This document shows positions 3,464 to 27,492 of a stretch of DNA of 42,730 nt, one piece after another. Every line of letters begins with the position of its first letter. Position 1 is the stretch's first letter. Position numbers and translations under genes: made by a program. The notes below the pieces were generated by a model that searched no databases, was not told the DNA's origin, and saw only the letters and a program-made list of their open reading frames with translations. Origin of the DNA: Bacteroidota bacterium (lineage in GTDB: Bacteria > Bacteroidota > Ignavibacteria > UBA10030 > UBA8401); contig WBUG01000027.1 in assembly GCA_008933835.1 (NCBI GenBank), positions 1-42,730 on the forward strand, written 5' to 3'.

Positions 3464-3510
3464 CCTTACTATAGAGAGTGAGGCGATTTGACCGTTCAGA
3501 GGTCAGACTA

Positions 3511-3547
3511 GTGCTAATTTAGCACAACGAGTGCGAAAAAACAGCAC
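3511..3547. promoter_or_regulatory. Candidate activator-binding sites: alternating GTGC/GCAC half sites
   Basis: The 15-base sequence GTGCTAATTTAGCAC (3511-3525) is a perfect inverted repeat with 7-base arms around one base. A second GTGC-N9-GCAC pair follows at 3531-3547, and the inner halves form GCAC-N5-GTGC. The block sits 50-86 bases upstream of the sigma-54-like promoter, in the gap between the NtrBC-type pair and the large operon, where an enhancer-type activator would bind. NtrC itself uses GCAC...GTGC dyads; binding here by the neighbouring regulator is inference. Confidence 0.55.
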
Positions 3548-3596
3548 AATAAAATTATTGAATCCACGTAAAACAGAAAAAATTCGCCGTTTCCAG

Positions 3597-3612
3597 TGGC
3601 ATAATAATTGAA
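3597..3612 (+). promoter_or_regulatory. Candidate sigma-54 promoter of the large plus-strand operon
   Basis: TGGCATAATAATTGAA matches the -24/-12 layout (TGGCAC-N5-TTGCA): the -24 GG is followed by exactly 10 bases and then GA where GC is expected. Transcription would begin near 3623, leaving a leader of about 33 bases to the ATG at 3656. The only deviation in the key dinucleotides is the -12 C to A change. The adjacent gene for a sigma-54 activator supports the call. Confidence 0.55.
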
Positions 3613-3655
3613 CGTTCAACGGACAATTCTTTACCCCTACCGATACGGAGGAGAT

Positions 3656-5941
3656 ATGACACGCCACCACCGCATCCCGATGACCGTCCTCTTTCTGCTG
3701 GCACTTGCGTCCGTACTGCCGGCGCAGCGGTTCGCCGTGGCGACCGGTGACTGGAACGGACCGATCTGGGCCGCCGCGTCCGACGGTGCCGCCGGCAGCG
3801 CTGCCGTACCGACGATGACGGACAGCATCACCGTGAATGCCGGGGTCATCGTGACGGTGCGGCAGACCGATGCGCAGTGTCATTCCGTCGCCTTCGGCGA
3901 TGCGGCGGCAAAACTGGCGCTCGATACCGGAAGCGTGCTGACGGTGTACGGGAACTTCACGCTCGCGACCACCGCGCACAATGCCATCGCCTCCTGGGCT
4001 CCGCAGGCGCGTCTCGTGCTCGCCGGCGGCGGCGTGCAGCTCATGAAAGGGTGGAGCACCTCCGGTTTCTCGACGTCGTTCAACTACCTGCGCGTGGACA
4101 AGACGGCGGGGAAGGTGGTGACCGACGGAACGAACATGCGCTTCGGCATCGGCGACACGCTGGAGATCGTGCGGGGGACCTTCGAGCTGGCGTCGACCGA
4201 CGACATCGAGTCGCGCAGCTCCTCCGGTTCCGCGACCTCGTTCGTGCTGCTGGTGCAGCCCGAAGGGAGCTTCACGATGACCGGCAGCACGTCGCACATC
4301 CGCCGGGCGAGCAACACGTCGCTGGAAGCGAAGCGCGTGGGCCGTGCGGTGGTGTACGGATCGGCGACGCTCCGTTCCACCTCGACCAACGGGCTCAACT
4401 TCGCCGGCATCGACGTGAACGACGGCGGCGAACTGGTGGCGGCGAGCTTCAGCAACAGCGCCGTCGGGAACCTGAACGCGGGAGCGGTCACGGTGAAGTC
4501 CGGCGGCGAACTGCGCATCATCAGCACCGCTCCGTTCTGGGACACCACCTCCGCCTCGGTGACGCTGCAGGCCGGCGGCGTGTACCGCATCAACGGCGAC
4601 CCCGGCAACGCGTTCCCCCGCACCTTCGTCAACGGCGGCACCGTGCGGTACGGCGCGACGGGGGACCAGACGGTGAAGGACATGCCGTACCACCGGCTGG
4701 AGATCAGCTTCGCCGGAACGAAGACATGGACGGTGGACACGAACCGCGTCATCGCCGAAAGCCTGGAAGTGAACAACTCCGCCGTGCTCCGCTTCGCGGC
4801 CTCGTCGCCGAAGACGGTGACGCTCAACGGAACGCTCCGCCTCACCAGCGGTTCCGTCAACAATCACGATTCGAACCAGGTGACGCTGGCGCTCTCCGAC
4901 ACCGCGGACATCTCGCGCGCCACCGGCACGCTCGCCGCGGCGCCGCAGTTCGGGGCGTCGGTGAACCTGCGGTACACCAGCTCGGTGCAGACGGTGACGC
5001 CCGGACCGGAGCTGCCGTCATCCGCATCGGTGCTCGGTACGCTCGCGCTCAACGCGCCGATGGGCCTCTCCCTCAGCGCTCCGGTGACGGTGAACAAAGA
5101 GCTGAACCTCACCGAAGGACTGCTGTACCTGAACGACCATCGTCTGACCCTCGGACCGGCCGCCGCGGTCACCGGCACTCCCGCCGACAGCGCCATGGTG
5201 GTGCCGAGCGGCACCGGCACGATGCGGAAGACCTTCGCCTCCGCATCATCCTTCACGTTCCCGCTCGGCGACACGCTCGCCGGCCGGCGATACACTCCCG
5301 CCGCCTTGACGTTCACCTCCGGTACGTTCGCGCCGGCGCAGGTGGACCTCTCGGTGACACCGCAGAAGCATCCCGGCAACACCAGCACCGGTTCGTACCT
5401 TGCGCGGTACTGGACGGTCGCCGCCACGGGACTCTCCGCCTTTTCGGCGGCCGTTTCGTTCGACTACGATACGTCCGACATCGCCGGAACCGAGAGCGCC
5501 CTGGTGCTGGGTCAATGGACCGGCAGCGGATGGGCCTCCGCGCAGGGAGCCGCCGACACGAACCTGCACCGTCTCAGCGGTACGGTGACCTCGTTCTCCG
5601 ACTTCACCGGCGGGGAGCTGAAGGGTGTGACGGGTGTGACCACTCCGCCCTCCGTTCCGACCGTCTTCGCGCTCCGGCAGAACTACCCCAATCCGTTCAA
5701 TCCTTCGACCGTGATCGCGTACGACCTGCCGGCGGCGAGCACCGTGTCGCTCGCGGTCTACGACATCCTCGGCAAGGAGGTGGCCGTGCTGGTCAACGGC
5801 GAACAGCCGGCGGGGCGGTACAGCGTCTCACTGTCGTCCGCCCGGTACGGCATGGCGTCCGGTCTCTACTTCTACCGCATCGCCGCCGCGGGGGGCGGAC
5901 GGCGCTTCGTACAGGTGAACAAGATGATGCTGGTGAAATAA
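3656..5941 (+). CDS. T9SS-secreted beta-structure surface protein (paralogue 1)
   Basis: The protein has 761 residues. The ATG at 3656 was chosen over an in-frame one at 3608 because GGAGGAG lies at 3647-3653 and the protein then opens with a clean signal peptide (ends near SVLPAQ). The body is a long series of beta-strand-rich, Thr/Ser/Gly repeats resembling right-handed beta-helix or G8-like proteins, starting with a GDWNGPIW module. The C-terminus is a T9SS type A sorting domain (QNYPNPFNPST, VYDILGKEV, final MMLVK), which directs export across the outer membrane and usually anchoring. I see no catalytic motif; it may bind polymer or form surface structure. It is the first gene after the sigma-54-like promoter and is paralogous to the gene at 11905 and to the C-terminal two thirds of the product of 14370. 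Confidence 0.9.
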   Translation: MTRHHRIPMTVLFLLALASVLPAQRFAVATGDWNGPIWAAASDGAAGSAAVPTMTDSITVNAGVIVTVRQTDAQCHSVAFGDAAAKLALDTGSVLTVYGNFTLATTAHNAIASWAPQARLVLAGGGVQLMKGWSTSGFSTSFNYLRVDKTAGKVVTDGTNMRFGIGDTLEIVRGTFELASTDDIESRSSSGSATSFVLLVQPEGSFTMTGSTSHIRRASNTSLEAKRVGRAVVYGSATLRSTSTNGLNFAGIDVNDGGELVAASFSNSAVGNLNAGAVTVKSGGELRIISTAPFWDTTSASVTLQAGGVYRINGDPGNAFPRTFVNGGTVRYGATGDQTVKDMPYHRLEISFAGTKTWTVDTNRVIAESLEVNNSAVLRFAASSPKTVTLNGTLRLTSGSVNNHDSNQVTLALSDTADISRATGTLAAAPQFGASVNLRYTSSVQTVTPGPELPSSASVLGTLALNAPMGLSLSAPVTVNKELNLTEGLLYLNDHRLTLGPAAAVTGTPADSAMVVPSGTGTMRKTFASASSFTFPLGDTLAGRRYTPAALTFTSGTFAPAQVDLSVTPQKHPGNTSTGSYLARYWTVAATGLSAFSAAVSFDYDTSDIAGTESALVLGQWTGSGWASAQGAADTNLHRLSGTVTSFSDFTGGELKGVTGVTTPPSVPTVFALRQNYPNPFNPSTVIAYDLPAASTVSLAVYDILGKEVAVLVNGEQPAGRYSVSLSSARYGMASGLYFYRIAAAGGGRRFVQVNKMMLVK

Positions 5942-6931
5942 ATGCGGAGCTTCGCCGCCGTCATGCTCTTCCTTGCTTCATTCGCGCCCCCCTCCGGCGC
6001 CTCCGATCCGCGCGCCGCGCTGGACAGGGACGAGGTGACCATCCTTGTCACCGATTCGGGGCTGGGGGGACTGTCGGTGGCCGCGGACATTGAGCGTCAG
6101 ATCCGACACACGCCGATGTTCCGGCGCGCCGACGTGGTCTTCTGCAGCGCGCTTCCCCCCGGCGGCCGCGGCTACAACGACATGTCCGGAACGGACGAAA
6201 AGGCGGCGGTCTTCTCCTCCGCGCTGGACGGTATGATGCGGCGGTACGCCCCCGACGTCATCCTCATCGCCTGCAACACGCTGTCGGTCATCTACGACCG
6301 GACCGAGTTCTCGAAGCGGAGCACGGTGCCGGTGGTCGGCATCGTGGAGATCGCCGCCGACGAACTCGCTGCACGCTGGAAGCGCTCACCTTCCGCCGCG
6401 GTCCTGCTGTTCGGCACCGAGACCACCGTCGCCTCCGGCGCGCACCGGGCAGCGCTCGTCGCCCGCGGCGTGCCGGAGAGTCTCATCATCGCGCAGGCTT
6501 GTCCGAAGCTCGAGAGCGAGATCCAGACCGATCCGGCCGGCGACATGACACGCACATACATCGAATGGTACACCGACGAGGCAGGCGCGGCGCTGCCGAC
6601 GCCGGCCCGTTCGGTCATCGCCGGACTCTGCTGCACGCACTACGGGTACAGCGCCGGGATCTTCGCCCGCGAACTCTCCCGGCTGCGTCCCGTACCGCCG
6701 GAGGTGATCGACCCGAATCCGGGGATGTCGCAGCGGGTGCTTCCTCGGCGGACGCAGCGGTTCCCCGGCATCGTTCCCTCCGTTCTCGTCGTCTCCCCGG
6801 TGAAGCTCTCCGCCGAGGAGACCGAGGCGGTCGGCCGGATGCTCCGGCCCGTCTCGCCCGCCACGGCGGACGCCCTGACGGCGTACCGGTTCGAACCGCA
6901 CCTGTTCCCGGTACCGGAGGTGCGCCGGTGA
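5942..6931 (+). CDS. Exported glutamate/aspartate racemase-family protein
   Basis: The 329-residue product begins with a signal peptide (hydrophobic 4-15, cleavage near SGAS) and continues as a MurI-type racemase: DSGLGGLSV at 38-46, the first catalytic cysteine in ACNT (C111) and the second in CCTH (C231). Cofactor-independent racemases use these two cysteines to interconvert L- and D-glutamate. Housekeeping MurI is cytoplasmic, so the exported form is unusual and may act on D-glutamate released from a D/L polymer. The ATG follows the preceding stop directly (TAAATG), with no separate promoter, and the gene overlaps the next by 4 bases. The N-terminal Tyr-Asn (GYND) region differs from the usual PYG motif, so a related racemase substrate is possible. 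Confidence 0.85.
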   Translation: MRSFAAVMLFLASFAPPSGASDPRAALDRDEVTILVTDSGLGGLSVAADIERQIRHTPMFRRADVVFCSALPPGGRGYNDMSGTDEKAAVFSSALDGMMRRYAPDVILIACNTLSVIYDRTEFSKRSTVPVVGIVEIAADELAARWKRSPSAAVLLFGTETTVASGAHRAALVARGVPESLIIAQACPKLESEIQTDPAGDMTRTYIEWYTDEAGAALPTPARSVIAGLCCTHYGYSAGIFARELSRLRPVPPEVIDPNPGMSQRVLPRRTQRFPGIVPSVLVVSPVKLSAEETEAVGRMLRPVSPATADALTAYRFEPHLFPVPEVRR

Positions 6932-8742
6932 ACCGGTTCGGTATCCTCCTCGCAGCGCTCCCGCTTCTCGCCGTCTCCCTGGCCGCCCAGCCGTTCGTTC
7001 CGGGTCAATCCACCTTCGGCCGCAACAACTACATCGAGTACATCGCGGGGAACTCGCCGTTCATCCTCTCCGCGCCGCACGGCGGGTCGCTCGAGCCGGC
7101 GGAGATCCCGGACCGCACGTTCGGCACCACGACGAAGGATGCGAACACCGAAGAGACGGCGCGGGAGATTCAGGCGGCGTACCATGCCCTCACGGGAGCG
7201 TATCCCCATGTCATCATCTGCCGGCTCCACCGGAGGAAGATCGACGCGAACCGCGAGGTCGTCGAGGGGGCACAGGGGAACGAGTTCGCGGTGCAGGCGT
7301 GGAACGAGTTCCACGCGTTCATCGATTCCGCGAAAGCGGCGGCGGTCCGTTCGCACGGAGCGGCGTTCTACATCGACCTTCACGGCCACGGCCACACCGT
7401 CCAGCGGCTGGAACTCGGATATCTCCTTTCCGCGTCGCAGCTGGACCTCCCGGACAACACGCTCAATTCCGCCCCCGGATACCGGAACATCAGCAGCATC
7501 CGCACGATGGCCGCGGCGGCGGGGGTCCCGTTCGCGGAAGTGCTGCGAGGCGAATCGAGCTTCGGCGGGTTCATGGAGTACCTCGGGTATCCCTCCGTTC
7601 CCGGCGTGCTGCAGCCGACGCCCGGGAACGATCCGTACTTCAACGGCGGATACAACACCGAACGCCACGGTTCGCAGAACGGCGGCACGGTGAGCGGTCT
7701 GCAGATCGAATCGAACTACACCGGCGTGCGCGACACCGACGCGAACCGGAAGGCGTACGCGCGCGCCATCGCGGACGCGGTGGCGCGGTTCAGCCGGCTG
7801 CATCTCTTCCACGACGTGACGCTCCTCCGGCCGGCTGTGCGCATCAATGAAGTGCTCTTCGATGTGCCGGCCGACGACGCCGGAACGCCCGCACTGGAGG
7901 GCGATATCAACGGCGACGGCGTCCGCAGCGCGCGGGGGGACGAGTTCATCGAGATCGTGAACGCGGGGAGCGACACGGCGTCCATCGGAGGGTACCGCCT
8001 TGCGGACCGCGATATGACATCGTTCTTCACCTTCCCGGAGGGGACACGGCTCGCACCGAACGGCGTCGCGGTCGTGTTCGGCGGGATGGGCCCGGGCGGT
8101 TCGGGACCGGCCGTGCCGGCGGGAACGCTCGTCTTTGCCGCCCGTCCGGGCGCCGCCGATTCCGGTTTCACCGTCTCCGCCTCCAAGACCAATCTTCTCT
8201 CCGCCGGCGACGGTGTGGTGCTGTTCGATCCCTCGGTCAATTACGCCGCGGACGAAGTGTGCTGGGGGAGCGCCGCGGTACGGACGAAGAACGGACGGAA
8301 GCTCATCGCACCGAACACCGCATCGGGCGACAGCATCGCCGGCGCCATCCAGCAGTCGGTCACCCGCACGGTGCCCGGCACCGGCGCCTGGACGAAGCAC
8401 CGGTCCGTCTCCTCCTCGGCATGCTCACCCGGGGCCGCCGCCGTGATGAGCGTCGGCGCCGCCTCCGGAACCGTGCCGGTCACTCCGCTGCTCGTGCGGA
8501 ACTATCCGAACCCGTTCAATCCGTCGACCGAGATCCGGTTCCAGCTCGCCTCCGCGGGACGCGTGACCGTGACGGTGTTCGACCTGCTCGGCCGCCGCGT
8601 CGCGACGCTGCTCGACGAACATCGTCCGGCGGGAACCGGTGCGGTCCGGTTCAGCGGGGAGGGACGACCCTCCGGCGTGTACCTCTGTTCGGTCTCCTCC
8701 GGCGGCCGGACGGTCACCGTACCGATGACCTTGTTGAAATGA
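6928..8742 (+). CDS. T9SS-secreted N-formylglutamate-amidohydrolase-like enzyme with lamin-tail domain
   Basis: The protein has 604 residues. A GTG start at 6928 (GTGA overlap with the racemase stop) gives a signal peptide ending near SLAAQ. The catalytic region (about 30-300) carries the marks of the N-formylglutamate amidohydrolase / M14-like zinc fold: SAPHGG (H51), KIDANR (D106, N108, R109), DLHGHGH (D150, H152) and QIESN (E261). Such enzymes cut amide bonds of glutamate derivatives. A lamin-tail (LTD) beta-sandwich follows (about 305-400, DEFIEIVNAG) and then a T9SS sorting domain (RNYPNPFNPST). I infer a secreted amidase for a glutamate-type polymer. The exact substrate is unknown. Confidence 0.82.
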   Translation: MNRFGILLAALPLLAVSLAAQPFVPGQSTFGRNNYIEYIAGNSPFILSAPHGGSLEPAEIPDRTFGTTTKDANTEETAREIQAAYHALTGAYPHVIICRLHRRKIDANREVVEGAQGNEFAVQAWNEFHAFIDSAKAAAVRSHGAAFYIDLHGHGHTVQRLELGYLLSASQLDLPDNTLNSAPGYRNISSIRTMAAAAGVPFAEVLRGESSFGGFMEYLGYPSVPGVLQPTPGNDPYFNGGYNTERHGSQNGGTVSGLQIESNYTGVRDTDANRKAYARAIADAVARFSRLHLFHDVTLLRPAVRINEVLFDVPADDAGTPALEGDINGDGVRSARGDEFIEIVNAGSDTASIGGYRLADRDMTSFFTFPEGTRLAPNGVAVVFGGMGPGGSGPAVPAGTLVFAARPGAADSGFTVSASKTNLLSAGDGVVLFDPSVNYAADEVCWGSAAVRTKNGRKLIAPNTASGDSIAGAIQQSVTRTVPGTGAWTKHRSVSSSACSPGAAAVMSVGAASGTVPVTPLLVRNYPNPFNPSTEIRFQLASAGRVTVTVFDLLGRRVATLLDEHRPAGTGAVRFSGEGRPSGVYLCSVSSGGRTVTVPMTLLK

Positions 8743-8774
8743 AACGAACCGCATCATTCCATCAGCATACCATC

Positions 8775-10595
8775 ATGAAGAACATCCTTCTCCTCTTCGC
8801 CGTTGCCGTCCTCCTCGGCGGTTGCAGCCTGCTCGAGAACGACGGCGCGGACGACGCTGCCATCTCGCAGAACGGCGGGTACTTCTACCTGCTGGACCGC
8901 ACCACCGTCTCGCTCGTGATGCTCGACGCGCAGCTGCATGAACTGCAGCGGTGGAACCTGTATCCCGTCACCAACGACACGAGCCTGCAGGGGATCGCGT
9001 TCGACGGCAAACGGCTCTGGATCACCACCTCCGGCAGCGCGCTGAAGGTGATCCAGCTCGACATCGACGGAGCGAACGTCAGCGCCCTGAAGACGTTCGA
9101 CGCGCCCCCTCAGCGCCGCGGCACCGTACGCGGCATCGCGTGGGACGGCGGCTCGCTCTGGGTCGCCAACAGCGGCTCCCGGACGTACACCATTCCGGCG
9201 ATGCTCTATAAAATGGACCCGCTCACGGGGAAGAGCCTCGACTCATTGACGCTGCCGTTCGCTGAACCGCGCGCGGTGGGGTACGTGCCGTCGTTCCTCA
9301 ACGTGTACGGCGTCGGCACGAGCGACCCGATGCTCTACATGAGCGACGTGAACACGAACAAGATCTACCGGTACAATCTGGCCAAGCCCGCGTTCGATAC
9401 GGCGTTCTCGGCGCCGGTGCCGCCGCGCGGCGTGTCGTACGTGAATCCGGTCGGCATCTCGGGGGACGGGCAGGCCATCTGGCTGGTGAACAGCAGCGCC
9501 TCCAGCGCGGCGGACCATCTGTACCGCATCACCTACGCCGGCGCCGTGGAAGTGCGGTACGATCTGCCGTACAGCGAACCGGGACCGATGGTCTGGTCTT
9601 CGGCGGACGTCCGGAACGCGGCGGCCGCACCTCTTTCGGTGCTCTCCGTCTCGCCGAACAGCGCGCGCATCGATACCTCCATGACCGTGGACATCTTCGG
9701 CACGGGATTCCGTTCCGGCACGGGACTGACGGCGTCGTTCGGCGCCGGCATCACCACCGATTCGGTCCGCTTCATCTCCTCCACGCAGCTCAAGGCGGGC
9801 ATCACCGTCTCGGCCTCCGCCGCGGTGGGGAAACGGTCCGTGACCGTGACGAATCCGGGCGGCGTGACGGCGACGGGAGATTCGGTCTTTTCGGTGACCG
9901 CGGTCGCGCAGGGTCCCGGTCATCTCTGGCTGGCGGACCAGGCTTCGCTGATGCTCTATAAGATCCGCATCAGCGACACGACGGTCGTCGCGCAGTACAG
10001 CACCGCTGGACTCTCCTCCGCCGGTCCGCAGGGGGTCGCGTACGACGGAACGAACCTGTGGCTCTGTCTCTCCGGCACCACGCGGCGGCTCTATAAAGTG
10101 GACACCACCGGCGGAAGTCTCAACGAGCTCTCCTCCTTCGCGGCCCCCGCCTCGGGCGGAACGCTGCGGGGCATCGCGTTCAACGGCGGGTTTCTCTGGA
10201 TGTCCGTCAGCACCACCGCGCGCATCTACAAGATCGATCCGGCGTCCGGACTCGCCGTCGACTCGCTCTCCTCACCCGGAGCCGAACCGCGCGGCATCGC
10301 CTTCTCCGGCGGCGAGCTGTACTGCAACGACACCACCATCGATTCGGTCTTCACCTACTCGGCGGCGCAGTCCCGGTGGAGCTCCCGTTTCGCGACGCCG
10401 ACGCCCACCGGCGGCACGGCCTCGAACCGGTTCGCGACGGGCCTGACGTGGGACGGCAGCAATTTCTGGATCGCGAATTCGACCAACAATTTCGACCACG
10501 TGTACAAGCTCGGTCCGTCCGGCGACGTGCTGCTGAGCGTCGCGGCGCCCGGCATCGGAGCAGCGCAGCTGACCGGTCTGGCCCATACACCATAG
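8775..10595 (+). CDS. Exported lipoprotein with beta-propeller-like repeats and an IPT/TIG domain
   Basis: The protein has 606 residues from ATG 8775. An in-frame ATG at 8739 overlapping the preceding stop would add 12 residues. A lipobox (LLGGC) ends the signal peptide, so the mature protein is lipid-anchored. Two sets of propeller-like repeats (GIAFDGKRLWI, GIAWDGGSLWVAN, GVAYDGTNLWL, GIAFNGGFLWM) flank a central IPT/TIG immunoglobulin-like domain (about 285-375: SVSPNSARIDT, VTNPGG). No enzyme motif is evident. A substrate-binding or scaffold role on the outer membrane, in the manner of SusD/E-type lipoproteins next to an outer-membrane channel, is plausible but inferred from context only. 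Confidence 0.85.
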   Translation: MKNILLLFAVAVLLGGCSLLENDGADDAAISQNGGYFYLLDRTTVSLVMLDAQLHELQRWNLYPVTNDTSLQGIAFDGKRLWITTSGSALKVIQLDIDGANVSALKTFDAPPQRRGTVRGIAWDGGSLWVANSGSRTYTIPAMLYKMDPLTGKSLDSLTLPFAEPRAVGYVPSFLNVYGVGTSDPMLYMSDVNTNKIYRYNLAKPAFDTAFSAPVPPRGVSYVNPVGISGDGQAIWLVNSSASSAADHLYRITYAGAVEVRYDLPYSEPGPMVWSSADVRNAAAAPLSVLSVSPNSARIDTSMTVDIFGTGFRSGTGLTASFGAGITTDSVRFISSTQLKAGITVSASAAVGKRSVTVTNPGGVTATGDSVFSVTAVAQGPGHLWLADQASLMLYKIRISDTTVVAQYSTAGLSSAGPQGVAYDGTNLWLCLSGTTRRLYKVDTTGGSLNELSSFAAPASGGTLRGIAFNGGFLWMSVSTTARIYKIDPASGLAVDSLSSPGAEPRGIAFSGGELYCNDTTIDSVFTYSAAQSRWSSRFATPTPTGGTASNRFATGLTWDGSNFWIANSTNNFDHVYKLGPSGDVLLSVAAPGIGAAQLTGLAHTP

Positions 10596-10609
10596 TGAGA
10601 ACACCGACC

Positions 10610-11869
10610 ATGATGAACCGAACCATCATTCTCCTCTTGTTCGCGGTCCTTCCCGCCGCGGCGCAGTTCACCGTCACCGGCGACTTCCGCGTCCGGTGGT
10701 ACTCGGACAGTTACGACGACGCTCTGGACTCGCGCGGCAAGGAGAACTACATGCGCTACCTGGGCCGGCTGCGGGGCGTGACGAGCCTCGGCGAGAACAC
10801 CCTCTTCCGGACGGAGCTCATCACCCTCATCGACAATCCGAACGCACCGGTCCGCAACATCGCCGGCACCGGCGCGATGCGGTACGGCATCACGCAGATC
10901 TACGCGGAGATGACCTATCCGGACCTGCTCGTGTTCGACGTGGTGCGGTTCCGGCTCGGCCGGCAGCAGTTCCCGATCGGGAACGGTCTCTCGATGGGCG
11001 ATTCGTACTACTTCCTCGACAAGTTCGACGGTGCGCGCATCGACCTGATGGTCGCGCCGTTCACCCTCTCGCTCTTCGGCGCCATCACGGGGCAGAACCT
11101 GAGCGGCACCGGACTCTATCCCGATCCGGGCAGCGACCAGCTGTACGTGGCGAGGCTCGGCACGACGGTGTGGAAACAGAGCGTGATGGCGTACCTCATC
11201 AACCAAAAACTGCGCGGCTCGTTCAACGACACGTACGTGGCGGGGGCGGGGGCGACGGGCGAGATCGTGTACAAAGACCTTGAATATAATATCGAAGGGG
11301 CGTACCAGTCGTACCACACCGTGCCGGGACTCCCCGGGAAGCACGGACTGGGATACATGGGGGGCGTTTCGTACCGGTGGGGAATGGGACCGTTCCGTTC
11401 CATCAAGGTCGAATCGCGTTACGCCGCGTACGAGGGGGACGATGCGTCCACCAGGGAGATCGAGATGTTCAGTCCGCCGTACCCCAGTTTCTGGTGGGGA
11501 AGCCGCGCCGGATATGTGGACGGCGACGTCGGGGGCGATTTCCCGCGCAACGGCCGCAACCTCGAGGGGAGCCGTATCTGGTATTCGCGCGTCTATGTGA
11601 TCCCGTCCGCCCTTCCGAAGCTCCGGGTGCAGGCGCAGTACATCCATGTGGGCGAGTACGTGGACAATGACGACTACAACACCATGGACGACGAGCTCTC
11701 CGTACGCGCGTACTACACGCTCTCGGCGCAGTCGGCGCTGCAGGTCCGGTACGCCCGGGCGTTCCCCAACGACGGCGACCGCGACCTGAACGGCGACGGA
11801 CGCATCTCCAGCACCGAAGACCGGTACAGCGTCAGCAGCATCATGCTCGAATGGCAGGTACAGTTCTGA
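10610..11869 (+). CDS. Outer-membrane beta-barrel protein (porin-like)
   Basis: This 419-residue protein starts with MMNRT and a signal peptide ending near PAAAQ. It is made of alternating amphipathic strands rich in Tyr/Trp/Arg (FRVRWYSDSYD, RFRLGRQQFPIGNG) and ends in the typical C-terminal strand with terminal Phe (EWQVQF) recognised by the BAM complex. The layout resembles alginate-export-type porins of 16-18 strands. There is no plug domain, so it is not TonB-dependent. Sitting in the middle of a secreted-hydrolase operon, it is a good candidate for uptake of oligomers across the outer membrane. The nearest gene starts 14 bases after the preceding stop. Confidence 0.85.
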   Translation: MMNRTIILLLFAVLPAAAQFTVTGDFRVRWYSDSYDDALDSRGKENYMRYLGRLRGVTSLGENTLFRTELITLIDNPNAPVRNIAGTGAMRYGITQIYAEMTYPDLLVFDVVRFRLGRQQFPIGNGLSMGDSYYFLDKFDGARIDLMVAPFTLSLFGAITGQNLSGTGLYPDPGSDQLYVARLGTTVWKQSVMAYLINQKLRGSFNDTYVAGAGATGEIVYKDLEYNIEGAYQSYHTVPGLPGKHGLGYMGGVSYRWGMGPFRSIKVESRYAAYEGDDASTREIEMFSPPYPSFWWGSRAGYVDGDVGGDFPRNGRNLEGSRIWYSRVYVIPSALPKLRVQAQYIHVGEYVDNDDYNTMDDELSVRAYYTLSAQSALQVRYARAFPNDGDRDLNGDGRISSTEDRYSVSSIMLEWQVQF

Positions 11870-18895: not shown

Positions 18896-19042
18896 ATGCT
18901 GTTCTGGTCGTACATCCTCATCACGGCGCTCTTCGCCGTCATCGTCACACAGGAGCTCTTCCGGGAGCGGAACTGGCGGCAGCAGCTCGCCATGGTGCTC
19001 GTCCTGGTCCCGCTGGTGCTCCGCGTCCTGCTGATCAAATGA
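18896..19042 (+). CDS. 48-residue two-TM membrane protein following the permease
   Basis: A short ORF starts at ATG 18896 behind a GAGAGGGAAGG Shine-Dalgarno and ends in ATGA overlap with the next gene. The sequence runs MLFWSYILITALFA (TM1, about 4-19), a charged QELFRERNWR loop, and MVLVLVPLVLRVLLIK (TM2, about 32-46). The ribosome site, the coupling on its 3' side and the 10-base gap to the permease argue that it is a real gene. It may be a minimal small subunit replacing DctQ, but that is inference. It matches no family I recognise. Confidence 0.75.
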   Translation: MLFWSYILITALFAVIVTQELFRERNWRQQLAMVLVLVPLVLRVLLIK

Positions 19043-20163: not shown

Positions 20164-20206
20164 CGCCGCCGGTCCGATCATTCATCACATCAACCATGGA
20201 GCACCA

Positions 20207-20755
20207 ATGACACCATTTCGTTCGCTGTTGACACTCTCGTTCCTTCTGATGCTGTCGGCATCGGTCACGGCCCAGACCGATCGGTTCTCGGCGCCGGTCC
20301 TCATCACCTCCGCCGGACAGAGCGCCGACGTCACCATGGCCGGGATGCTCTGCAAGAAGGCGGGCATCGGCGCGACCGTGAACGCGAAGGCGGCCGCGGG
20401 CGATCTGGGGGATGCGAAGACCCTCATCATCGTTCCGGGATTCAGTTCCAAAGGTCTCGGCGCGGCCGGCATCAGCCGCGAGCAGGAGATGGAACGGGTG
20501 ACGGAGCTGCTCGCCGCCGCGAAGGCGAAGAAGGTGAAGGTGATGATGCTGCATCTCGGCGGCAAGCCGCGGCGCGGCGCGCAGTCCGACGACTTCAACA
20601 AGGCGTCCGCCGAAGCGTCGGCGGCGATGATCGTCGTGAAACAGGGGGACGAGGACGGATTCTTCTCGACGCTGGCCGCGTCGAAGAAGATCCCCATCGA
20701 ACTCGTCGAGAAGATCGCCGAAGCGGTGAAACCGCTCGGCGCGAAGTTCCAGTGA
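20207..20755 (+). CDS. Small exported protein, DUF6305-like
   Basis: This 182-residue protein has a signal peptide ending near VTAQT. The mature part is a compact alpha/beta domain: APVLITSAGQSADV, a TLIIVPGFSSKGLG strand-loop, then a KKVKVMMLHLGG strand. From memory it resembles the DUF6305 family that recurs next to TRAP-permease and poly-gamma-glutamate genes; I cannot confirm that here. It may be a periplasmic binding or accessory component for the permease, which has no DctP in the window. The start at 20207 has a GGAG six bases upstream. The next gene lies 40 bases on. Confidence 0.75.
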   Translation: MTPFRSLLTLSFLLMLSASVTAQTDRFSAPVLITSAGQSADVTMAGMLCKKAGIGATVNAKAAAGDLGDAKTLIIVPGFSSKGLGAAGISREQEMERVTELLAAAKAKKVKVMMLHLGGKPRRGAQSDDFNKASAEASAAMIVVKQGDEDGFFSTLAASKKIPIELVEKIAEAVKPLGAKFQ

Positions 20756-20795
20756 CGCCGTCACCGTTCCACCGTCCCGCATTCAGGAGCATGGT

Positions 20796-22751
20796 ATGAT
20801 GAACAGATCCTTCCTCCGCATCGCCGCCGCGGCGTTCCTCGCCTTCCGTCTCGTCACGGCCCAGTCCCTCAGCGTCGGCATGGGAGGCACGACGGCCGCC
20901 GGCACATCGGCGATGGCGGCAACGGCCCATCCGCTCGCGTCGCAGGCGGCCATCGAAATGCTCCAGCGCGGCGGTAATGCGGTGGACGCCGCCGTGGCCG
21001 CGGCGTTCGCCATCGGTGTGGTGGAACCGGACGGTTCCGGCATCGGCGGAGGCGGAGGGATGCTGGTGTACCTCGCCAAGGAGCGCCGGTCGGTCTTCAT
21101 CGACTACTATCAGCGTTCGTCCGAAGACATCGTCTCGGTGAACTACAATCCCAAGACCGACAACCGTTCCGCCAAAGCGGTGCTGGTGCCGGGCACGGTG
21201 GACGGCCTGCTGCTGGCGCTCGAGCGCTGGGGAACGCTTCCGCGCACCGCGGTGCTGGCCCCCGCCATCCGTTACGCGGAGGAGGGGTTCGCCGTGGACC
21301 AGACGCTGGCGAAGATCTTCCTCGACAACAGCGACCTCCTGCAGAAGTACGACGGGACGGCCGCCGTGTTCCTGAACGACGGATTCCCGTATGCGGAAGG
21401 GGATACGCTGAAACAGAAGGAGCTCGCCCGCACGCTGCGGCTCATCGCGGAGAAAGGGCGGGAGGGGTTCTATGCCGGTCCGGTGGCGGAATCGCTGGTC
21501 CGGACGGTGTCGGACCTCGGCGGCGCCCTGACGATGAACGACCTGAAGAACTACCGCTCCGACGTCGTCGAACCGCTCCGCGGTTCCTACCGCGGATATG
21601 ATGTGGTGTCGGCGAACGCGCCGCAGTCCGGCGCGTCGGTCATCGAAGCGCTGCAGATCCTGGAGAACGAGAACATCCGTTCGCTCGGTCATCCCTCCCG
21701 TTCGGCCGAATCGCTCCACCTGATGGCCGAAACGATGCGTCGCGTCTATGCGGACCGGACCGCCTACATCGAAGATCCGAACTTCACCCCGGTCCCGAAC
21801 CGCGGTCTCACCTCCAAGGCGTTCGCCCGCGCCCGCTACCACGACATCAACCGGGCGATGGCCGAACCGCCGAGCTACCGCAGTACGAAGGCGGGGAATC
21901 CGCACAATTATTCGGCCGGCGCGGATGAGGAACCGGGCGATGAACGTCCGTCGCCGGCATCGGACCGGGCGCGCACTCCTTCGGACGAGGACGATGAAGG
22001 GGTCTCGTCGTACAAGAAATACGGTGACGACCTGTTCGACGCCTGGGGTTCCGGCGCGAAGAAGACGTCGCCGAAGAAGAAGAGCGATGCCCCGCCCGCC
22101 GAACCGAAGGAGACGGATGACGACGATGCCATCCCGCAGGAAGCGGACGCCGGCGGGTTGACGGACGGCGCCGCTCGGTTCGCCGCCGCAGGGGAAGGGG
22201 GACACACCACGCATCTGTGCGTCGTCGACAAGGAGGGGAACGCCGTTTCGGTCACGCAGACGCTCGGTACGTTCTTCGGTTCTGGACTCACGGTGGAAGG
22301 GGTCCTGCTCAACACCTCCATGTCCAACTTCTCCGCCACCGCGGCCGTGAACTCCATCCAGCCCAACAAGCGTCCCCGCAGCTCCATCGCGCCGACCATC
22401 CTCCTTCGCGGCGGCCGTCCCGCCATGGTCGTCGGTTCTCCCGGAGCGGCGCGCATCATCGCCACCGTCGTGCAGGTCATCAGCAACGTGGTGGACCACG
22501 GCATGGACGCCGGCGCAGCGAACACCGCACCGCGGTTCTTCTGCCAGAAGTTCGACGATTTCCTCTATGTCGAATCGCGCGTGACGGACGAGGCGCAGCA
22601 GGGGGTGAAGCGCAAAGGGCATCCGCTGAGGGTGCTGGGGGATTTCGACCTCTTCTTCGGCGGCGTCCAGCTCATCCTCATCGATCCCGCGACGGGACGC
22701 CTCACCGGTTCGGCGGACCCGCGGCGCGGCGGTGCGGCCGTCGGTTATTGA
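20796..22751 (+). CDS. ggt: Exported gamma-glutamyltransferase-family protein with long charged linker
   Basis: The protein has 651 residues, with a signal peptide ending near LVTAQ and CAGGAG 6 bases before ATG 20796. It follows the GGT/CapD Ntn-hydrolase fold: SQAAIEMLQRGGNAVDAA and GSGIGGGGGMLVY in the large half, and the self-cleavage site before T471 in GHTTHLCVVDKEGNAVSVT. About 100 residues just ahead of T471 (368-470) are an Asp/Glu/Lys/Pro-rich, probably disordered insertion. Several E. coli GGT substrate residues differ here: TLNT is TLGT (N411), NNQMDD is NTSMSN (Q430, D433), and FR is YY near R114. It therefore may not use free gamma-glutamyl compounds; polymer cleavage in the manner of CapD/PgsD is a reasonable alternative. 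Confidence 0.88.
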   Translation: MMNRSFLRIAAAAFLAFRLVTAQSLSVGMGGTTAAGTSAMAATAHPLASQAAIEMLQRGGNAVDAAVAAAFAIGVVEPDGSGIGGGGGMLVYLAKERRSVFIDYYQRSSEDIVSVNYNPKTDNRSAKAVLVPGTVDGLLLALERWGTLPRTAVLAPAIRYAEEGFAVDQTLAKIFLDNSDLLQKYDGTAAVFLNDGFPYAEGDTLKQKELARTLRLIAEKGREGFYAGPVAESLVRTVSDLGGALTMNDLKNYRSDVVEPLRGSYRGYDVVSANAPQSGASVIEALQILENENIRSLGHPSRSAESLHLMAETMRRVYADRTAYIEDPNFTPVPNRGLTSKAFARARYHDINRAMAEPPSYRSTKAGNPHNYSAGADEEPGDERPSPASDRARTPSDEDDEGVSSYKKYGDDLFDAWGSGAKKTSPKKKSDAPPAEPKETDDDDAIPQEADAGGLTDGAARFAAAGEGGHTTHLCVVDKEGNAVSVTQTLGTFFGSGLTVEGVLLNTSMSNFSATAAVNSIQPNKRPRSSIAPTILLRGGRPAMVVGSPGAARIIATVVQVISNVVDHGMDAGAANTAPRFFCQKFDDFLYVESRVTDEAQQGVKRKGHPLRVLGDFDLFFGGVQLILIDPATGRLTGSADPRRGGAAVGY

Positions 22752-22800
22752 ATCTCACGGCGTTTGTTCGTACCCTGACCTCATCGACGACCGGACGACC

Positions 22801-23940
22801 GTGACCACTCTACTTCCATTCCTTCTCCTTGCTGCCGCCGCGGGAGCGCTCTTCGTCGAAGCGGCGCTGCTGCGGCGGCGGGTCTCTTCCCTCCCCGTCC
22901 GCATCCATGTCAACGGTACACGAGGCAAGTCGAGCGTCGTACGGTACATCACGGCGGGACTCCGTTCCGCCGGCATCCGTACGGTCTCCAAGGTGACCGG
23001 TGTCGTCCCGACGTACAGTTCCCTGACCGGTGAGGATTCCGTCATCCGCCGGTTCGGTCCCGCTCGCGTCCAGGAACAGTTCATGGCGCTCCGCCGCGCG
23101 GCCGCAGAGGGTGCCGGAGCCGCGGTCATCGAATGCATGTCCCTCCAGCCGGAATATCAGGAACTCGAAGCGCGGTGGCTGCGCCCGACCGTCAGCGTCC
23201 TCACCAACGTGCGGGACGACCATCGCGAGGTGATGGGGGAGACCGAACAAGAACGCATCCGCTCGCTGACATCCGCGGTCCAGCCGGGGGTCACCGTCGT
23301 GACCGGCGAAGAACGGCTGCTCGATGCGCTCCACGCCGCCGTTCGGGTGCGCGGCGCGCGGCTGGTATCGGCCCCGCTGCACAACGGTGCGGGAACGGAT
23401 ACCGCCGCACAGCGCAACATCGGCATCGCCGTCGCGGCCTGCAGCGCAGCAGGATTTCCCGCAGAAAAGGTCCTCCCCGGTATCCTGCAGGAAGCGGAAC
23501 GGGACCGTCTCCGTCGTCTGCATCGGGCAACGGGAGGATCGACGTCGCTGTTCATCGATGTGTTCGAAGCGAACGATGTCGAATCGACGGCGGAACGGTT
23601 CGCCGCGGAACGGCGCTCGGCGCCGTATCGCTCCGTCACCATCATCCTCAATACCCGGCACGACCGGCCGGTCCGGACGGCGGATTTCGTCCGCTGGATC
23701 CTCACGCTGGGAACAGAGGTACGTTCGGTCGTGCTCAGCGGAACGCATTCCGCCGCAGCAGAACGGATGCTCCGCTCCGGCCGCTGCCGAGCCTTCGTCG
23801 TACGGTGCGAGCCGGACGAGTGGAGCGAGGTCCGCGGAGAAGCGGTACCGGTCGGAGGTGAACGTATGATCGTCGGCGTCGGCAACATCGCCGGTGCCGG
23901 ACACCGGTGGCGTTCCGTGTTCAGCGGAGGACCGGCATGA
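22801..23940 (+). CDS. pgsB: Poly-gamma-glutamate synthase subunit PgsB/CapB
   Basis: The protein has 379 residues from a GTG start at 22801, preceded by 49 bases after ggt. An N-terminal membrane segment (about 3-20) is followed by the Mur-ligase-type ATP-binding loop HVNGTRGKSSV, then IECMSLQPEYQ and TNVRDDHREVMG, all typical of PgsB/CapB amide ligases. PgsB activates the gamma-carboxylate with ATP and joins it to glutamate, working with PgsC in the membrane. It is coupled to pgsC by an ATGA overlap. PgsA/CapA, the usual transport partner, is not in the window. Confidence 0.93.
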   Translation: MTTLLPFLLLAAAAGALFVEAALLRRRVSSLPVRIHVNGTRGKSSVVRYITAGLRSAGIRTVSKVTGVVPTYSSLTGEDSVIRRFGPARVQEQFMALRRAAAEGAGAAVIECMSLQPEYQELEARWLRPTVSVLTNVRDDHREVMGETEQERIRSLTSAVQPGVTVVTGEERLLDALHAAVRVRGARLVSAPLHNGAGTDTAAQRNIGIAVAACSAAGFPAEKVLPGILQEAERDRLRRLHRATGGSTSLFIDVFEANDVESTAERFAAERRSAPYRSVTIILNTRHDRPVRTADFVRWILTLGTEVRSVVLSGTHSAAAERMLRSGRCRAFVVRCEPDEWSEVRGEAVPVGGERMIVGVGNIAGAGHRWRSVFSGGPA

Positions 23941-24365
23941 CCATCGAGATCATGGTGCTCGGGGTCTTCGTTGGTTTCCTGTTCTATGAGCTGACCGGTC
24001 TTTCGCCGGGAGGGATCATCACGCCCGGATACCTCGCCATCGCGCTGTACGACCCTGTGAAAGTGGGCATCACCGTGCTCCTCGGCGTGCTCGTCTTCGC
24101 CGCGGTGGACCGGCTCTCCCGGCGCACCATCCTCTACGGACGGCGGAAGTTCTTCCTGGCGCTCCTCATCGGCGTCTGCCTCAAGCTCGCGGTGGACCGG
24201 TGGATCCAGCCGTCGCTCATCCTTCCCTTCGAACTCTCGTCCATCGGATTCATCATTCCCGGTCTCATCGGTCACGAAATGACACGGCAGCGGTTGCTGC
24301 CCACGCTCGCCTCCATCGTCATCGTCACGTCGCTGCTCGCGCTGCTCCTTCTGGTGCTGCGATGA
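23937..24365 (+). CDS. pgsC: Poly-gamma-glutamate synthase membrane subunit PgsC/CapC
   Basis: This 142-residue integral membrane protein has about four hydrophobic segments. It begins MTIEIMVLGVFVGFLFYELTG and contains SPGGIITPGYLAIAL and LPFELSSIGFIIPGLIGHE, stretches highly typical of PgsC/CapC. The family forms the membrane part of the polymerase with PgsB. The usual length is about 149 residues. It overlaps both neighbours by 4 bases, so pgsB, pgsC and pgsW are likely translated together. Confidence 0.93.
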   Translation: MTIEIMVLGVFVGFLFYELTGLSPGGIITPGYLAIALYDPVKVGITVLLGVLVFAAVDRLSRRTILYGRRKFFLALLIGVCLKLAVDRWIQPSLILPFELSSIGFIIPGLIGHEMTRQRLLPTLASIVIVTSLLALLLLVLR

Positions 24366-25474
24366 ACGTCGTGCCGCGCGTATCCCGCCGTACGCTGCTC
24401 CTCTCCACGGTCACGGCCGTCACCGTCCTCGCCGCGGTCTTCATCGCCGCCCGGCGGACCGAACCGCATCCATCGTCCGCCCGCATGCGGACGGCGGCGG
24501 AACATACCGTGCGGTGTTTCGAGGCGGTGCAGGTGGAGAAGGAAAGGAGAGGAGTGACGTATGATGAGGACGCTGCACACCGGCGGCATCCTTTGCTGGG
24601 GACCGAACTCTCGTTCCTCACCACCACGCTCGGTTCGTTCGAAGCGAAGGTCGCCTCCACGAATCCGGAGTTCGCCGCGCTCGCAGTCCGGCTGCTCGGC
24701 GAAGCGGGAGTGGATTCCGGCGACGCCGTCGGCGTCACCCTCTCCGGTTCCTTCCCGGCGCTCGGTATCTCGCTCCTGTGCGCTGTGGAACAGATCGGTG
24801 CCCGGCCGGTCATCATCAGTTCTCTCGGTGCGTCGACGTTCGGCGCCAACGAAGAGGCGATGACCTGGGCAGACATGGAAGGAACACTGAATCGCAATAA
24901 CCTGCTGCACGTCCGGTCGCGCCTGATGACTCCGGGAGCGGAGGCGGACACCGGCGGGGGATTGCCGGAGGAGGGGATGGAAGCAATACGGAAGGCGGTT
25001 CGACGGACCGGTTCCGTTCTCATCGTGCCTCCGGACCTGCCTGCCGCGATCGCACTCCGTGAATCGCTCTTTCTCCGCGAAAAGATATCGGCCTATGTGA
25101 ACGTCGGGGGGAGCCAGGCGGTGCTCGGGACGTGTCCGCATGCGCCGTCGTACGGGAACGGTATCCTTACGCCTGCCGCCGGCTGCCGGGACGAAGGACG
25201 GGGGGTGATCGCGGCGATGCTGGACCGCGGAGTTCCGGTCATCCATTTCCTCAATATCCGGGACCTGGCCCGCCGGTATGACATCGATGAAGACGGAAGC
25301 AACGAACGCCCGCCGTCTCGGCTCTACGAGCAGCAGACGGTGGACCCCGTCTGGCCTCTCGCCGGCGCCCTGTTGATCGCAGCTCCGCTGCTGTGGGATC
25401 GTCTGCGTGCACGGAAGGATCCACACAGTCCCCATTTGCCAACCGACAAGAGAATGGGTACATTCTCGATATGA
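24362..25474 (+). CDS. pgsW: Poly-gamma-glutamate system protein PgsW
   Basis: The protein has 370 residues: an N-terminal TM (about 10-32), a large extracytoplasmic domain, and a C-terminal TM (about 338-355) with a short basic tail. The signature of the poly-gamma-glutamate system family is present: TNPEFAALAVRLL, DAVGVTLSGSFPAL, SSLGASTFGAN, ITP-like ILTPAAG, and NVGGSQAVLG. The family is recognised by its constant place after pgsB-pgsC; its biochemical role is not established. It overlaps pgsC and the following cyanophycinase-like gene by 4 bases each, tying synthesis-type and hydrolysis-type genes together. Confidence 0.88.
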   Translation: MNVVPRVSRRTLLLSTVTAVTVLAAVFIAARRTEPHPSSARMRTAAEHTVRCFEAVQVEKERRGVTYDEDAAHRRHPLLGTELSFLTTTLGSFEAKVASTNPEFAALAVRLLGEAGVDSGDAVGVTLSGSFPALGISLLCAVEQIGARPVIISSLGASTFGANEEAMTWADMEGTLNRNNLLHVRSRLMTPGAEADTGGGLPEEGMEAIRKAVRRTGSVLIVPPDLPAAIALRESLFLREKISAYVNVGGSQAVLGTCPHAPSYGNGILTPAAGCRDEGRGVIAAMLDRGVPVIHFLNIRDLARRYDIDEDGSNERPPSRLYEQQTVDPVWPLAGALLIAAPLLWDRLRARKDPHSPHLPTDKRMGTFSI

Positions 25475-27492
25475 TTCACTGCCGAATCCTCCTCATCCTC
25501 ACTCTGATCATCGTCACCCAACCGACCGTCTCCTCCCAGGGCTCCGTCTTCTTCGTCGGGGGCGGGAGCGAGGATCACGGCGACTGGTCGGACGTGCCGT
25601 ACGGCTGGCTCGTGCAGCGCGCGCCGAACAAGAAGGTGCTCGTGATGCACTACTCCACGAACTCCTCCTTCATGCCGGGGTACTTCACGTCGCTCGGCGC
25701 CCTCTCGTCCACGAACCTCGTCATCTCCTCCGCGGCGATGGCGAACGATTCGGCGAACTACCGGACCATCCTGGAGTACGACGGCATCTTCCTCCGCGGC
25801 GGTGACCAGTGGCAGTACATCTCCAAGTGGAAGGGAACGCTCGTCGAGCAGGCCATCATGGAGGTCTTCCAGCGCGGCGGCGTGGTGGGAGGGACGAGCG
25901 CGGGGGAAGCGGTGCTCAGCGGCGTCATCTTCGACGCGCGTACGGCGTCGGTCAGTCCCCGCACCGCACTGCAGAACCCGCTCGGCGCCGGCATCACGCT
26001 CACCACCGATTTCCTCGGGTTCGTGCCGGGGGTGCTGGCGGACAATCACTTCTATGAGCGCGGACGCATCGCGCGTCTGATGGCGATGCTCGCGTTCCAT
26101 AAGACACAGAGCGGCACCGAAGCGGCCGGCATCGGCGTGGACGCCAACACCGCCTTCGGCATCGCTCCGGACGGCGTCGGCACCGTGATGGGTTCCGGCA
26201 CCGTGACGGTGCTCCGCTTCGCGCCGTCGACGGTCTATACGCTCCAGACCTCCGCACCCTTCTCGCTCCGTAACATGCGGCTGGACCAGCTCACGGCCGG
26301 TTTCACGTACGACACGAAGACAGGGAACATCACCGCACCATCCGCGGCGTTCCCGTACACTCCCGTCCCGTTTGCGCAGCACTCCCCCCGCATCATGATG
26401 GACGGCGGCGGACGGATCTCCGAGTGGGCTTCGGCATCGGGCGGATTGAAACGCTTGCAGTCGCTCCTCTCCGGCAGCTCCGGTCCGGTCGGTATCATCG
26501 GCTCGTCGTCGACACCGTCCGCGTCCGCGAGCGTCGATTCGTGCCTCGCTGTGTGGAACGTGCCGCGGCTCCTTCTTCCGGCGGACGAATCGTCACGCAC
26601 CTCGCAATCGTATGCGGATGCTGTGAACGGATGCTCCGCCTACATCTTCGCCGGTCTGAACCCCGACAGCGCCGCACGGCTCTTCGATGCGTCGCTCCCC
26701 GCCGGTCAGGCGCTGCGCAGCGCACTTGCCGCCGGCCGTCCCGCGCTCTTCCTTGCGAACGACCTCCTCGCGGCGGGGGACACCGGCGTCGCGAAGATCG
26801 AGTCGCACATCTACGCCGCGTACTACGGATACATGACGCTCGTGAAGGGGCTCGGCATCGTGAACGGAATGACCGTCGTGCCCCGGCTGTTCGAGAACTC
26901 CGACTACACCGACAACCGTGCGAGCGCGCTCTTCTGGGGGATGGCGAGCGGACGCAGTTCGTACGGCGTGATGCTGGACGCCGGTTCGTCCGCGGACATC
27001 CGCGGCGGGAACCTGTACGCGTTCGGCGCAACGCCGGCGGTGGTCGTCGACGCACGTAACGCTCACACCGCGGCGTACCCTTCCTGGATCGATCCCGGCA
27101 AATCGAAGCCGCGTCAGAACGCCGCGCTCATCGGCGCGTTCATCCATGCCGTACGTCCGGGCGATTCGTTGTCATTGCTCTCCGTGTCGGGCGTCCGGAA
27201 GCGCGATGAGGGACGGTCGGCCGTTCCGGAACGCTTCCGGCTGCATCAGAACGTTCCGAACCCGTTCAATCCTTCCACCACCATCGGCTATCAGCTCTCC
27301 GTCACCACGCCGGTGCGGCTGAGGGTGTTCGATTCGCTCGGCCGCGAGGTGGCGGAACTCGTCAACGGTGTCCAGCGCGAAGGCCGTTACGACGTCCGCT
27401 TCTCCGCCCCGCACCTTTCCTCCGGACCGTACGTGTACATGCTCTCCGCCGCCGGCGCGGTGCAGTCCCGCGTGATGCACCTTGTGAAATGA
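25471..27492 (+). CDS. T9SS-secreted cyanophycinase-like serine peptidase (S51)
   Basis: The protein has 673 residues, with a signal peptide ending near TVSSQ. The S51/class I amidotransferase-like core shows FVGGGSED, FLRGGDQWQ (G110-Q113), the nucleophile elbow GGTSAGE with S143, and DNHFYERGRIARL with H193. The third triad residue of cyanophycinase (Glu in the GIDEDTA motif) reads GVDANTA here, so Glu is replaced by A225. A second Rossmann-like half (about 330-560) and a T9SS tail (QNVPNPFNPST) follow. Cyanophycinases cleave beta-Asp-Arg dipeptides from cyanophycin; related peptidases cut isoaspartyl or isoglutamyl bonds. The gene is coupled to pgsW by ATGA and closes the 24-kb run. Confidence 0.88.
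   Translation: MIHCRILLILTLIIVTQPTVSSQGSVFFVGGGSEDHGDWSDVPYGWLVQRAPNKKVLVMHYSTNSSFMPGYFTSLGALSSTNLVISSAAMANDSANYRTILEYDGIFLRGGDQWQYISKWKGTLVEQAIMEVFQRGGVVGGTSAGEAVLSGVIFDARTASVSPRTALQNPLGAGITLTTDFLGFVPGVLADNHFYERGRIARLMAMLAFHKTQSGTEAAGIGVDANTAFGIAPDGVGTVMGSGTVTVLRFAPSTVYTLQTSAPFSLRNMRLDQLTAGFTYDTKTGNITAPSAAFPYTPVPFAQHSPRIMMDGGGRISEWASASGGLKRLQSLLSGSSGPVGIIGSSSTPSASASVDSCLAVWNVPRLLLPADESSRTSQSYADAVNGCSAYIFAGLNPDSAARLFDASLPAGQALRSALAAGRPALFLANDLLAAGDTGVAKIESHIYAAYYGYMTLVKGLGIVNGMTVVPRLFENSDYTDNRASALFWGMASGRSSYGVMLDAGSSADIRGGNLYAFGATPAVVVDARNAHTAAYPSWIDPGKSKPRQNAALIGAFIHAVRPGDSLSLLSVSGVRKRDEGRSAVPERFRLHQNVPNPFNPSTTIGYQLSVTTPVRLRVFDSLGREVAELVNGVQREGRYDVRFSAPHLSSGPYVYMLSAAGAVQSRVMHLVK

Follow-up and report, generated by a model that had tools for sequence, protein, structure and literature searches.

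What does a bacterium do with a block of genes that sets secreted hydrolases and an inner-membrane permease beside the enzymes that make a polymer? This question is raised by contig WBUG01000027.1 of a Bacteroidota bacterium of the Ignavibacteria (assembly GCA_008933835.1), which we analysed as one whole contig of 42,730 bases, hereafter the window (65% GC, from a genome of 3.57 Mb in 163 contigs). The original prediction, made from the sequence, described positions 3464-27492 as a utilisation locus in which a single pathway leads from the cell surface to import of an amide-linked polymer. According to our analysis there is about an even chance that this is a sigma-54-controlled locus which breaks down a polymer of gamma-glutamyl units (poly-gamma-glutamate in all likelihood) outside the inner membrane and imports the products, in most copies together with PgsBCW genes for synthesis, so that the polymer would be both made and salvaged. 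The substrate, the order of the reactions and the direction of flux are what we infer.

Genes were identified from reading-frame composition and from family searches of the window proteins using the Pfam and NCBIfam cut-offs. The plus strand carries an array of 16 colinear genes (3656-27492), and the genes for a response regulator and a histidine kinase lie divergently on the minus strand (507-3427). The array starts with T9a, a racemase, an N-formylglutamate-amidohydrolase-like (FGase-like) enzyme, a lipoprotein, a beta-barrel-like protein, T9b, T9c and a DctM-like permease, followed by a 48-residue membrane protein, an AstE-like hydrolase, a DUF6305 protein, a gamma-glutamyltransferase (GGT), PgsB, PgsC, PgsW and an S51-type protein. 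Most neighbouring genes overlap by four bases or are separated by short gaps, and the largest apparent gap, between the permease and AstE genes, is occupied by the 48-codon open reading frame at 18896-19042. The sixteen genes of the original prediction are reached if this frame is counted; otherwise the array has fifteen. An Rfam search of the window gave no match.

To examine conservation, every window protein was used to search Bacteroidales contigs and the surroundings of PgsW and DUF6305 genes in relatives' genomes. This was the neighbourhood scan on which the original prediction had staked its single-locus reading, and the parts were found to recur together, in order, both in relatives and in Bacteroidales. 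The core, from the permease through the 48-residue protein, AstE, DUF6305, GGT, PgsB and PgsC to PgsW, is colinear in the DUF6305 loci compared, with the exception of genome G208 and locus L035. In G208 (L050) the permease, small protein, AstE, DUF6305, GGT, racemase, lipoprotein and barrel genes are present, with extra genes between core members, and no match to PgsB or PgsW was found anywhere in the genome, which indicates that the salvage part can stand alone. Apart from G208, the module loci keep PgsB, PgsC and PgsW side by side in this order. Locus L035 (G050) carries a divergent, rearranged module with its own small protein, lying after PgsBCW and not before it; identities there are 31% for the permease, 36% for DUF6305 and 40% for AstE. 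In an evenly drawn sample of 395 genomes, DUF6305 was found above the cut-off in eight, PgsW in 13 and both in seven; six genomes had PgsW without DUF6305. The scan of genome contigs was made with one protein and is a limited sample, so that what is said of breadth applies to the groups covered here.

The genes around the core vary. G003, G006 and G040 have the kinase/activator pair upstream, in divergent orientation. In the Bacteroidales loci L072-L075 and L077, PgsW is followed by genes for a SusC-type receptor, a SusD lipoprotein, a racemase, a kinase, an activator and an FGase-like protein, in this order; in L025/L076 the genes after SusD are unrelated. The SusC/SusD pair was identified in the Bacteroidales locus L020 by PF07715/PF13715 (SusC) and PF12771 (SusD, 1e-64). 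In other relatives, genes for a TonB receptor, a protein of about 950 residues and a PorV-like protein lie close to the permease gene, and some of these relatives also have the barrel/lipoprotein pair. The protein of about 950 residues, which has no Pfam match (L041:14117-17095, L051:3459-6335), lies between the TonB receptor and the PorV-like protein, before the permease, and this trio recurs in 6-8 loci. The likeness to polysaccharide utilisation loci (PULs) noted in the original prediction is borne out by the SusC/SusD pair of the Bacteroidales copies, a pair that is the hallmark of PULs, and does not extend to such a pair in the window copy. The locus works in the manner of a PUL, but its window copy does not belong to the SusCD type.

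Several independent features suggest the nature of the polymer, among them the GGT (20796..22751, +; PF01019, 1e-141), an exported protein which we aligned to 2e0w and 4y23. It retains the catalytic threonine, Thr471, and in each of the 18 locus GGTs aligned 1-2 residues take the place of the 12-residue lid loop that follows this threonine. GGTs near two loci with PgsBCW only (L030 and L031) have the full 12-residue loop. Gram-negative GGTs have been described as lid-loop positive (PMC8062742), and absence of the loop has been linked to the acceptance or hydrolysis of poly-gamma-glutamate, as in Bacillus (PMC8062742, PMC9073855). The lid-loop-negative GGT of this locus thus points to a gamma-glutamyl polymer. 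Directly before Thr471 the window protein also has an acidic/charged low-complexity insertion of roughly 100 residues.

The same polymer is the product attributed to the next three genes, and the PgsBCW assignment of the original prediction was upheld for all of them at the NCBIfam cut-offs. They encode a PgsB/CapB-type poly-gamma-glutamate synthetase (22810..23940, +, start uncertain; TIGR04012, 227.5 bits, cut-off 222.7), the membrane subunit PgsC/CapC (23937..24365, +; TIGR04011 and PF14102, 109.4 bits against 96.45) and the poly-gamma-glutamate system protein PgsW (24362..25474, +; TIGR04332, 2e-82, 276.7 bits against 100). The ATP-binding loop of PgsB (P-loop GTRGKS) is intact in every copy checked. 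The structural model of PgsW (pLDDT 87) has a long helix near either end; neither Foldseek nor VIA gave a confident match to its fold (best Z 7.5), and searching the PDB with its sequence profile returned nothing. In PgsB and PgsW trees, whose long branches leave the inner order unsure, module-linked copies separate from PgsBCW-only copies with supports of 99/97 and 93/94, respectively.

Control by an NtrBC-type system, claimed in the original prediction, was corroborated at the sequence level. The divergent genes encode an NtrC-type response regulator (507..1886, -; Response_reg 6e-31, Sigma54_activat 5e-71, HTH_8, a Fis-type HTH, 7e-11) and a membrane-bound histidine kinase whose sensor region is periplasmic (1883..3427, -; HisKA, HATPase_c 5e-23). 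Regulator orthologues are 61-64% identical at the locus in G003, G006 and G040, and 52-53% identical in Bacteroidales loci. Since orthologue starts align to residue 13, the kinase probably starts at an internal Met at 3427 and not at the start of the reading frame (3463). RpoN is encoded in the host genome, so that kinase, sigma-54 activator and sigma factor are all at hand. Just upstream of the kinase gene lies a putative sigma-54-like promoter, TGGCACGACATTCGCA (3444..3459, -), the best consensus match of the whole window, with counterparts at the same position in G006 and G003. A second one, TGGCATAATAATTGAA (3597..3612, +), faces the operon; here the motif TGGCAY-N5-TTGRA is shared by the window, G006 and G003. 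Each of the six Bacteroidales loci has a TGGCATGGCTTTTGRN motif 42-43 bp before the start of the permease gene, which is there the first gene. Markov-sampled sequence contains 0-4 matches of such quality per 42.7 kb, so that a single match is not rare by chance and the argument for promoters rests on conservation, namely on motifs at nine operon starts (the window, G006, G003 and six closely related Bacteroidales loci). The palindrome GTGCTAATTTAGCAC between the divergent promoter motifs (3511..3525) is a candidate activator site whose exact sequence is not kept in relatives.

Import across the inner membrane would fall to the permease (17617..18885, +), which matches DctM of the TRAP transporters over about 120 residues (Pfam, 26.5 bits, cut-off 23.8) and gives a weak profile match to a DctMQ structure (E 0.025). 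It is 53-78% identical across loci and 31% in L035. The gene that follows it (18896..19042, +) is missing from every annotation and was recognised by comparison of loci. Its 48-residue product has two hydrophobic stretches and ends in LRVLLIK, and its stop codon overlaps the first codon of the AstE gene. In 17 of 17 loci checked, G208 and the divergent L035 among them, an intact copy follows the permease gene. Substitutions are concentrated at third codon positions (0.40/0.20/0.63 for the three positions). The AstE/AspA (M14-like) hydrolase (19039..20163, +; PF24827, 2e-7, 31 bits, cut-off 25) is membrane-anchored or exported, and its match to TIGR02994 (9e-9) lies below the cut-off. The exported DUF6305 protein (20207..20755, +; PF19823, 5e-50), which aligns with its orthologues, is the sole copy in the genome. 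Its comparison with the PDB gave short local matches to dihydropteroate synthase only, which we took as chance. By their position only, the 48-residue protein and DUF6305 are candidates for the missing TRAP-type partners.

Upstream in the array, an exported glutamate/aspartate racemase with a signal peptide is encoded at 5942..6931 (+; PF01177, Asp_Glu_race, 7e-11; TIGR00067, 5e-15). Both catalytic cysteine motifs (ACNT and CTHY/F) are present in the window, L050, L055 and L057, the four copies checked, and the orthologues have signal-like N-termini. An extracellular polymer containing D-Glu fits such N-termini better than a cytoplasmic supply of precursor does, and the exported racemase is compatible with the conversion of D-Glu freed outside the inner membrane.

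The remaining proteins of this part are secreted or belong to the outer membrane. T9a (3656..5941, +) is a repeat protein with a type IX sorting tail (TIGR04183, 34.7 bits, cut-off 23), and the type IX protein SprA is encoded in the host genome. The exported FGase-like enzyme (6928..8742, +), with a lamin-tail domain (LTD, 3e-11) and a sorting tail (TIGR04183, 32.1 bits), aligns with its orthologues; its FGase match (2e-5) is below the Pfam cut-off. It is followed by a lipoprotein with beta-propeller/TIG-like repeats (8739..10595, +; lipobox in the translation, Vgb_lyase 2e-7) and by a protein without a Pfam match (10610..11869, +), which appears from its sequence to be an outer-membrane beta-barrel; barrel orthologues are 50-66% identical and adjoin the lipoprotein gene. 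T9b (11905..14373, +) is a secreted G8-repeat protein with a sorting tail (Por_Secre_tail 7e-8, G8 2e-7). No glycosidase family scored above cut-off among the operon genes, the Vgb_lyase and G8 matches being of the repeat type. T9c (14370..17612, +) has a C-terminal sorting tail that scores just under the Pfam cut-off, and its residues 1-340 have the predicted fold of a zinc amidase/carboxypeptidase. VIA compared the model of this domain (pLDDT 76.8) with amidase_3 (Z 12.4, 151 residues, 3.2 A), with the FGase-family structure 2odf (Z 12.1, 179 residues, 3.4 A) and with the phage poly-gamma-glutamate hydrolase 3a9l (Z 10.7, 171 residues, 4.0 A). This fold search was more informative than a profile comparison with the FGase family, in which 29 columns only were aligned. 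The domain is kept in L037, L051, L036, L050 and L053 (44-59%) and distantly in L029, L055 and L057; none was found in the Bacteroidales genomes searched. Invariant His, Asp and Glu residues in its alignment suggest a putative metal site. Among the type IX-tailed proteins only the N-terminal domain of T9c gained a hydrolase-like predicted fold, and a role of these proteins in surface attachment is a guess.

From these assignments the following course of events can be proposed. The kinase/activator pair would sense a periplasmic signal and switch on the sigma-54 promoters. Amidase-like proteins secreted by the type IX system would cut the polymer at the cell surface, and the fragments would cross the outer membrane through the barrel and lipoprotein here, SusC/SusD in Bacteroidales and the TonB receptor in other relatives. 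In the periplasm, the lid-loop-less GGT and the AstE-like and FGase-like enzymes would free glutamate, the exported racemase would turn D-Glu into L-Glu, and the DctM-like permease with the 48-residue protein, perhaps also DUF6305, would bring glutamate in. From glutamate and ATP, PgsB, PgsC and PgsW could make polymer.

Whether synthesis belongs to this scheme is the point on which the explanations differ. The original single-pathway reading is right in that one unit is conserved across classes; it gives way as pure utilisation, since PgsB and PgsC are synthesis proteins, and for this reason making together with salvage fits better. According to a first rival, which we consider unlikely, the locus serves only to consume foreign poly-gamma-glutamate, and PgsBCW has been repurposed, for example for glutamylating imports or for transport, with no polymer secreted. 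SusC/SusD and the import permease agree with this, as do the tree separation of the module-linked PgsB and PgsW, given the long branches, and G208, which manages without PgsB and PgsW. The ATP loop found in every PgsB checked, a window PgsB above its equivalog cut-off and the PgsB-PgsC-PgsW order kept in all module loci but G208 argue against it. The reverse emphasis, that PgsBCW make a polyglutamate coat which the GGT, the amidases and the type IX proteins trim, release or anchor, is rather improbable. A GGT-family enzyme next to CapB/CapC-type genes is a known capsule arrangement in cap/pgs operons, and the locus has this layout. CapD, a GGT-family enzyme acting on Bacillus capsules, to which such a role would compare, is cited in PMC8062742. 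A capsule would leave the SusC/SusD importer, the permease and the exported racemase unexplained, as well as G208, where permease, racemase and hydrolases occur although PgsB and PgsW are absent. We regard it as similarly improbable that the locus scavenges gamma-D-glutamyl compounds of another kind, for instance gamma-glutamyl peptides or peptides from peptidoglycan, and not poly-gamma-glutamate: the amidase_3/carboxypeptidase folds that the T9c domain resembles include murein amidases, and the racemase would also suit D-Glu from peptidoglycan, but Pfam scans of the locus revealed neither a permease for muropeptides nor enzymes acting on sugars, and both the lid-loop-less GGT and the PgsBCW linkage favour a polymer.

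Several observations weigh against manufacture combined with salvage. Pfam searches found neither a SusC/SusD pair nor a TonB receptor in the window copy, and the six Bacteroidales loci are mutually close and do not count as six independent witnesses. The permease is DctM-like and only weakly assigned to the TRAP family by its sequence: of the TRAP-type permease in the original prediction, the DctM match above the Pfam cut-off stands, the match is weak, and none of the operon genes scanned gave a Pfam match to a DctP-type binding protein or DctQ. For T9c the resemblance is one of fold only, seen on a model of moderate quality (pLDDT 77). Finally, PgsB and PgsC point to synthesis yet are more diverged than the rest of the locus (window against G003: permease 76%, AstE 71%, PgsB 39%, PgsW 39%), so their role may be altered. 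We nevertheless favour a locus that both makes and salvages its polymer, because it joins uptake (SusCD, permease, hydrolases, racemase) with synthesis (PgsBC), and each module also occurs alone. A bolder version, which we put forward tentatively as possible, is a cycle in which one regulon builds extracellular poly-gamma-glutamate and re-eats it as a carbon and nitrogen reserve by means of surface amidases, SusCD-like import and a periplasmic racemase, with DctM-like protein, 48-residue protein and DUF6305 forming a new type of permease.

The last gene of the array encodes an S51/cyanophycinase-like protein (25471..27492, +; PF03575, 5e-9) with a weak, sub-threshold type IX tail. It scored 101.7 bits against the cyanophycinase equivalog TIGR02069, below the cut-off of 126.6, and no homologue was found among the other loci compared. 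It is therefore not a conserved part, cyanophycin is unsupported as the common substrate, and the cyanophycin theme of the original prediction was dropped. Its right-hand boundary at 27492 agrees with our finding that the genes from 27642 look like a separate cluster. These (27642-33140, +) encode OTC, carbamate kinase, ATC, ornithine aminotransferase and a cDPGS-like protein, which has no family match and which we take to be cyclic 2,3-diphosphoglycerate synthetase-like. The ornithine aminotransferase and cDPGS-like genes are paired away from the locus in about half of the genomes of the family (77-91% identity), on other contigs in G003, G005 and G006 and also in G004 and G012, which both lack a PgsW match; because of this pairing elsewhere, the arginine/ornithine genes were rejected as part of the locus. 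Further downstream, HEAT repeats are fused to a beta-lactamase/esterase-type domain (38694-40280, -); another domain of this type and a gene resembling that of D-cysteine desulfhydrase lie close by.

Among known systems, the nearest kind is the PUL, of which the locus is a polyamide variant with NtrC-type control and an attached polymer synthase. With respect to PULs and SusCD/RagAB importers (PMC7782687, PMC11817032), the SusC receptor, SusD lipoprotein, exported hydrolases and two-component regulator of the Bacteroidales copies are shared features; the amide-cleaving hydrolases, the NtrC-type sigma-54 pair and the synthesis genes within the array differ. With pgs/cap and GGT of Bacillus it shares PgsB, PgsC and a lid-loop-less GGT, but it has PgsW (TIGR04332) for PgsA/CapA, and in addition the racemase, the permease, DUF6305, an outer-membrane importer and sigma-54 control. 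The PgsBCW-only loci of related genomes (L027-L034) have the same PgsB-PgsC-PgsW order, and the stretches examined there contain no homologue of the permease, of AstE, of DUF6305 or of the racemase. An operon of Candidatus Cloacimonadota likewise places poly-gamma-glutamate synthesis genes in a Gram-negative phylum; the accessible part of its source describes CapB-CapC-CapA synthesis and no salvage module (PMC13082233). PghP-type hydrolases of non-producers, for which feeding on the polymer of others was proposed, are single genes and not a locus, rarely found with pgsB outside Bacillales (PMC4497714). A literature search, which left out most subscription papers and all preprints, found no prior description of the locus and no paper on DUF6305, on PgsW with poly-gamma-glutamate or on SusD with poly-gamma-glutamate.

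The locus extends the PUL idea, a nutrient locus reaching from the surface to the cytoplasm, from sugars to a polyamide, and gives a functional context to DUF6305, PgsW and the 48-residue membrane protein. It predicts a route by which poly-gamma-glutamate would be degraded in Gram-negative bacteria. If this is true, poly-gamma-glutamate should support growth of those Bacteroidales that carry the SusCD version, or act on them as an inducer.

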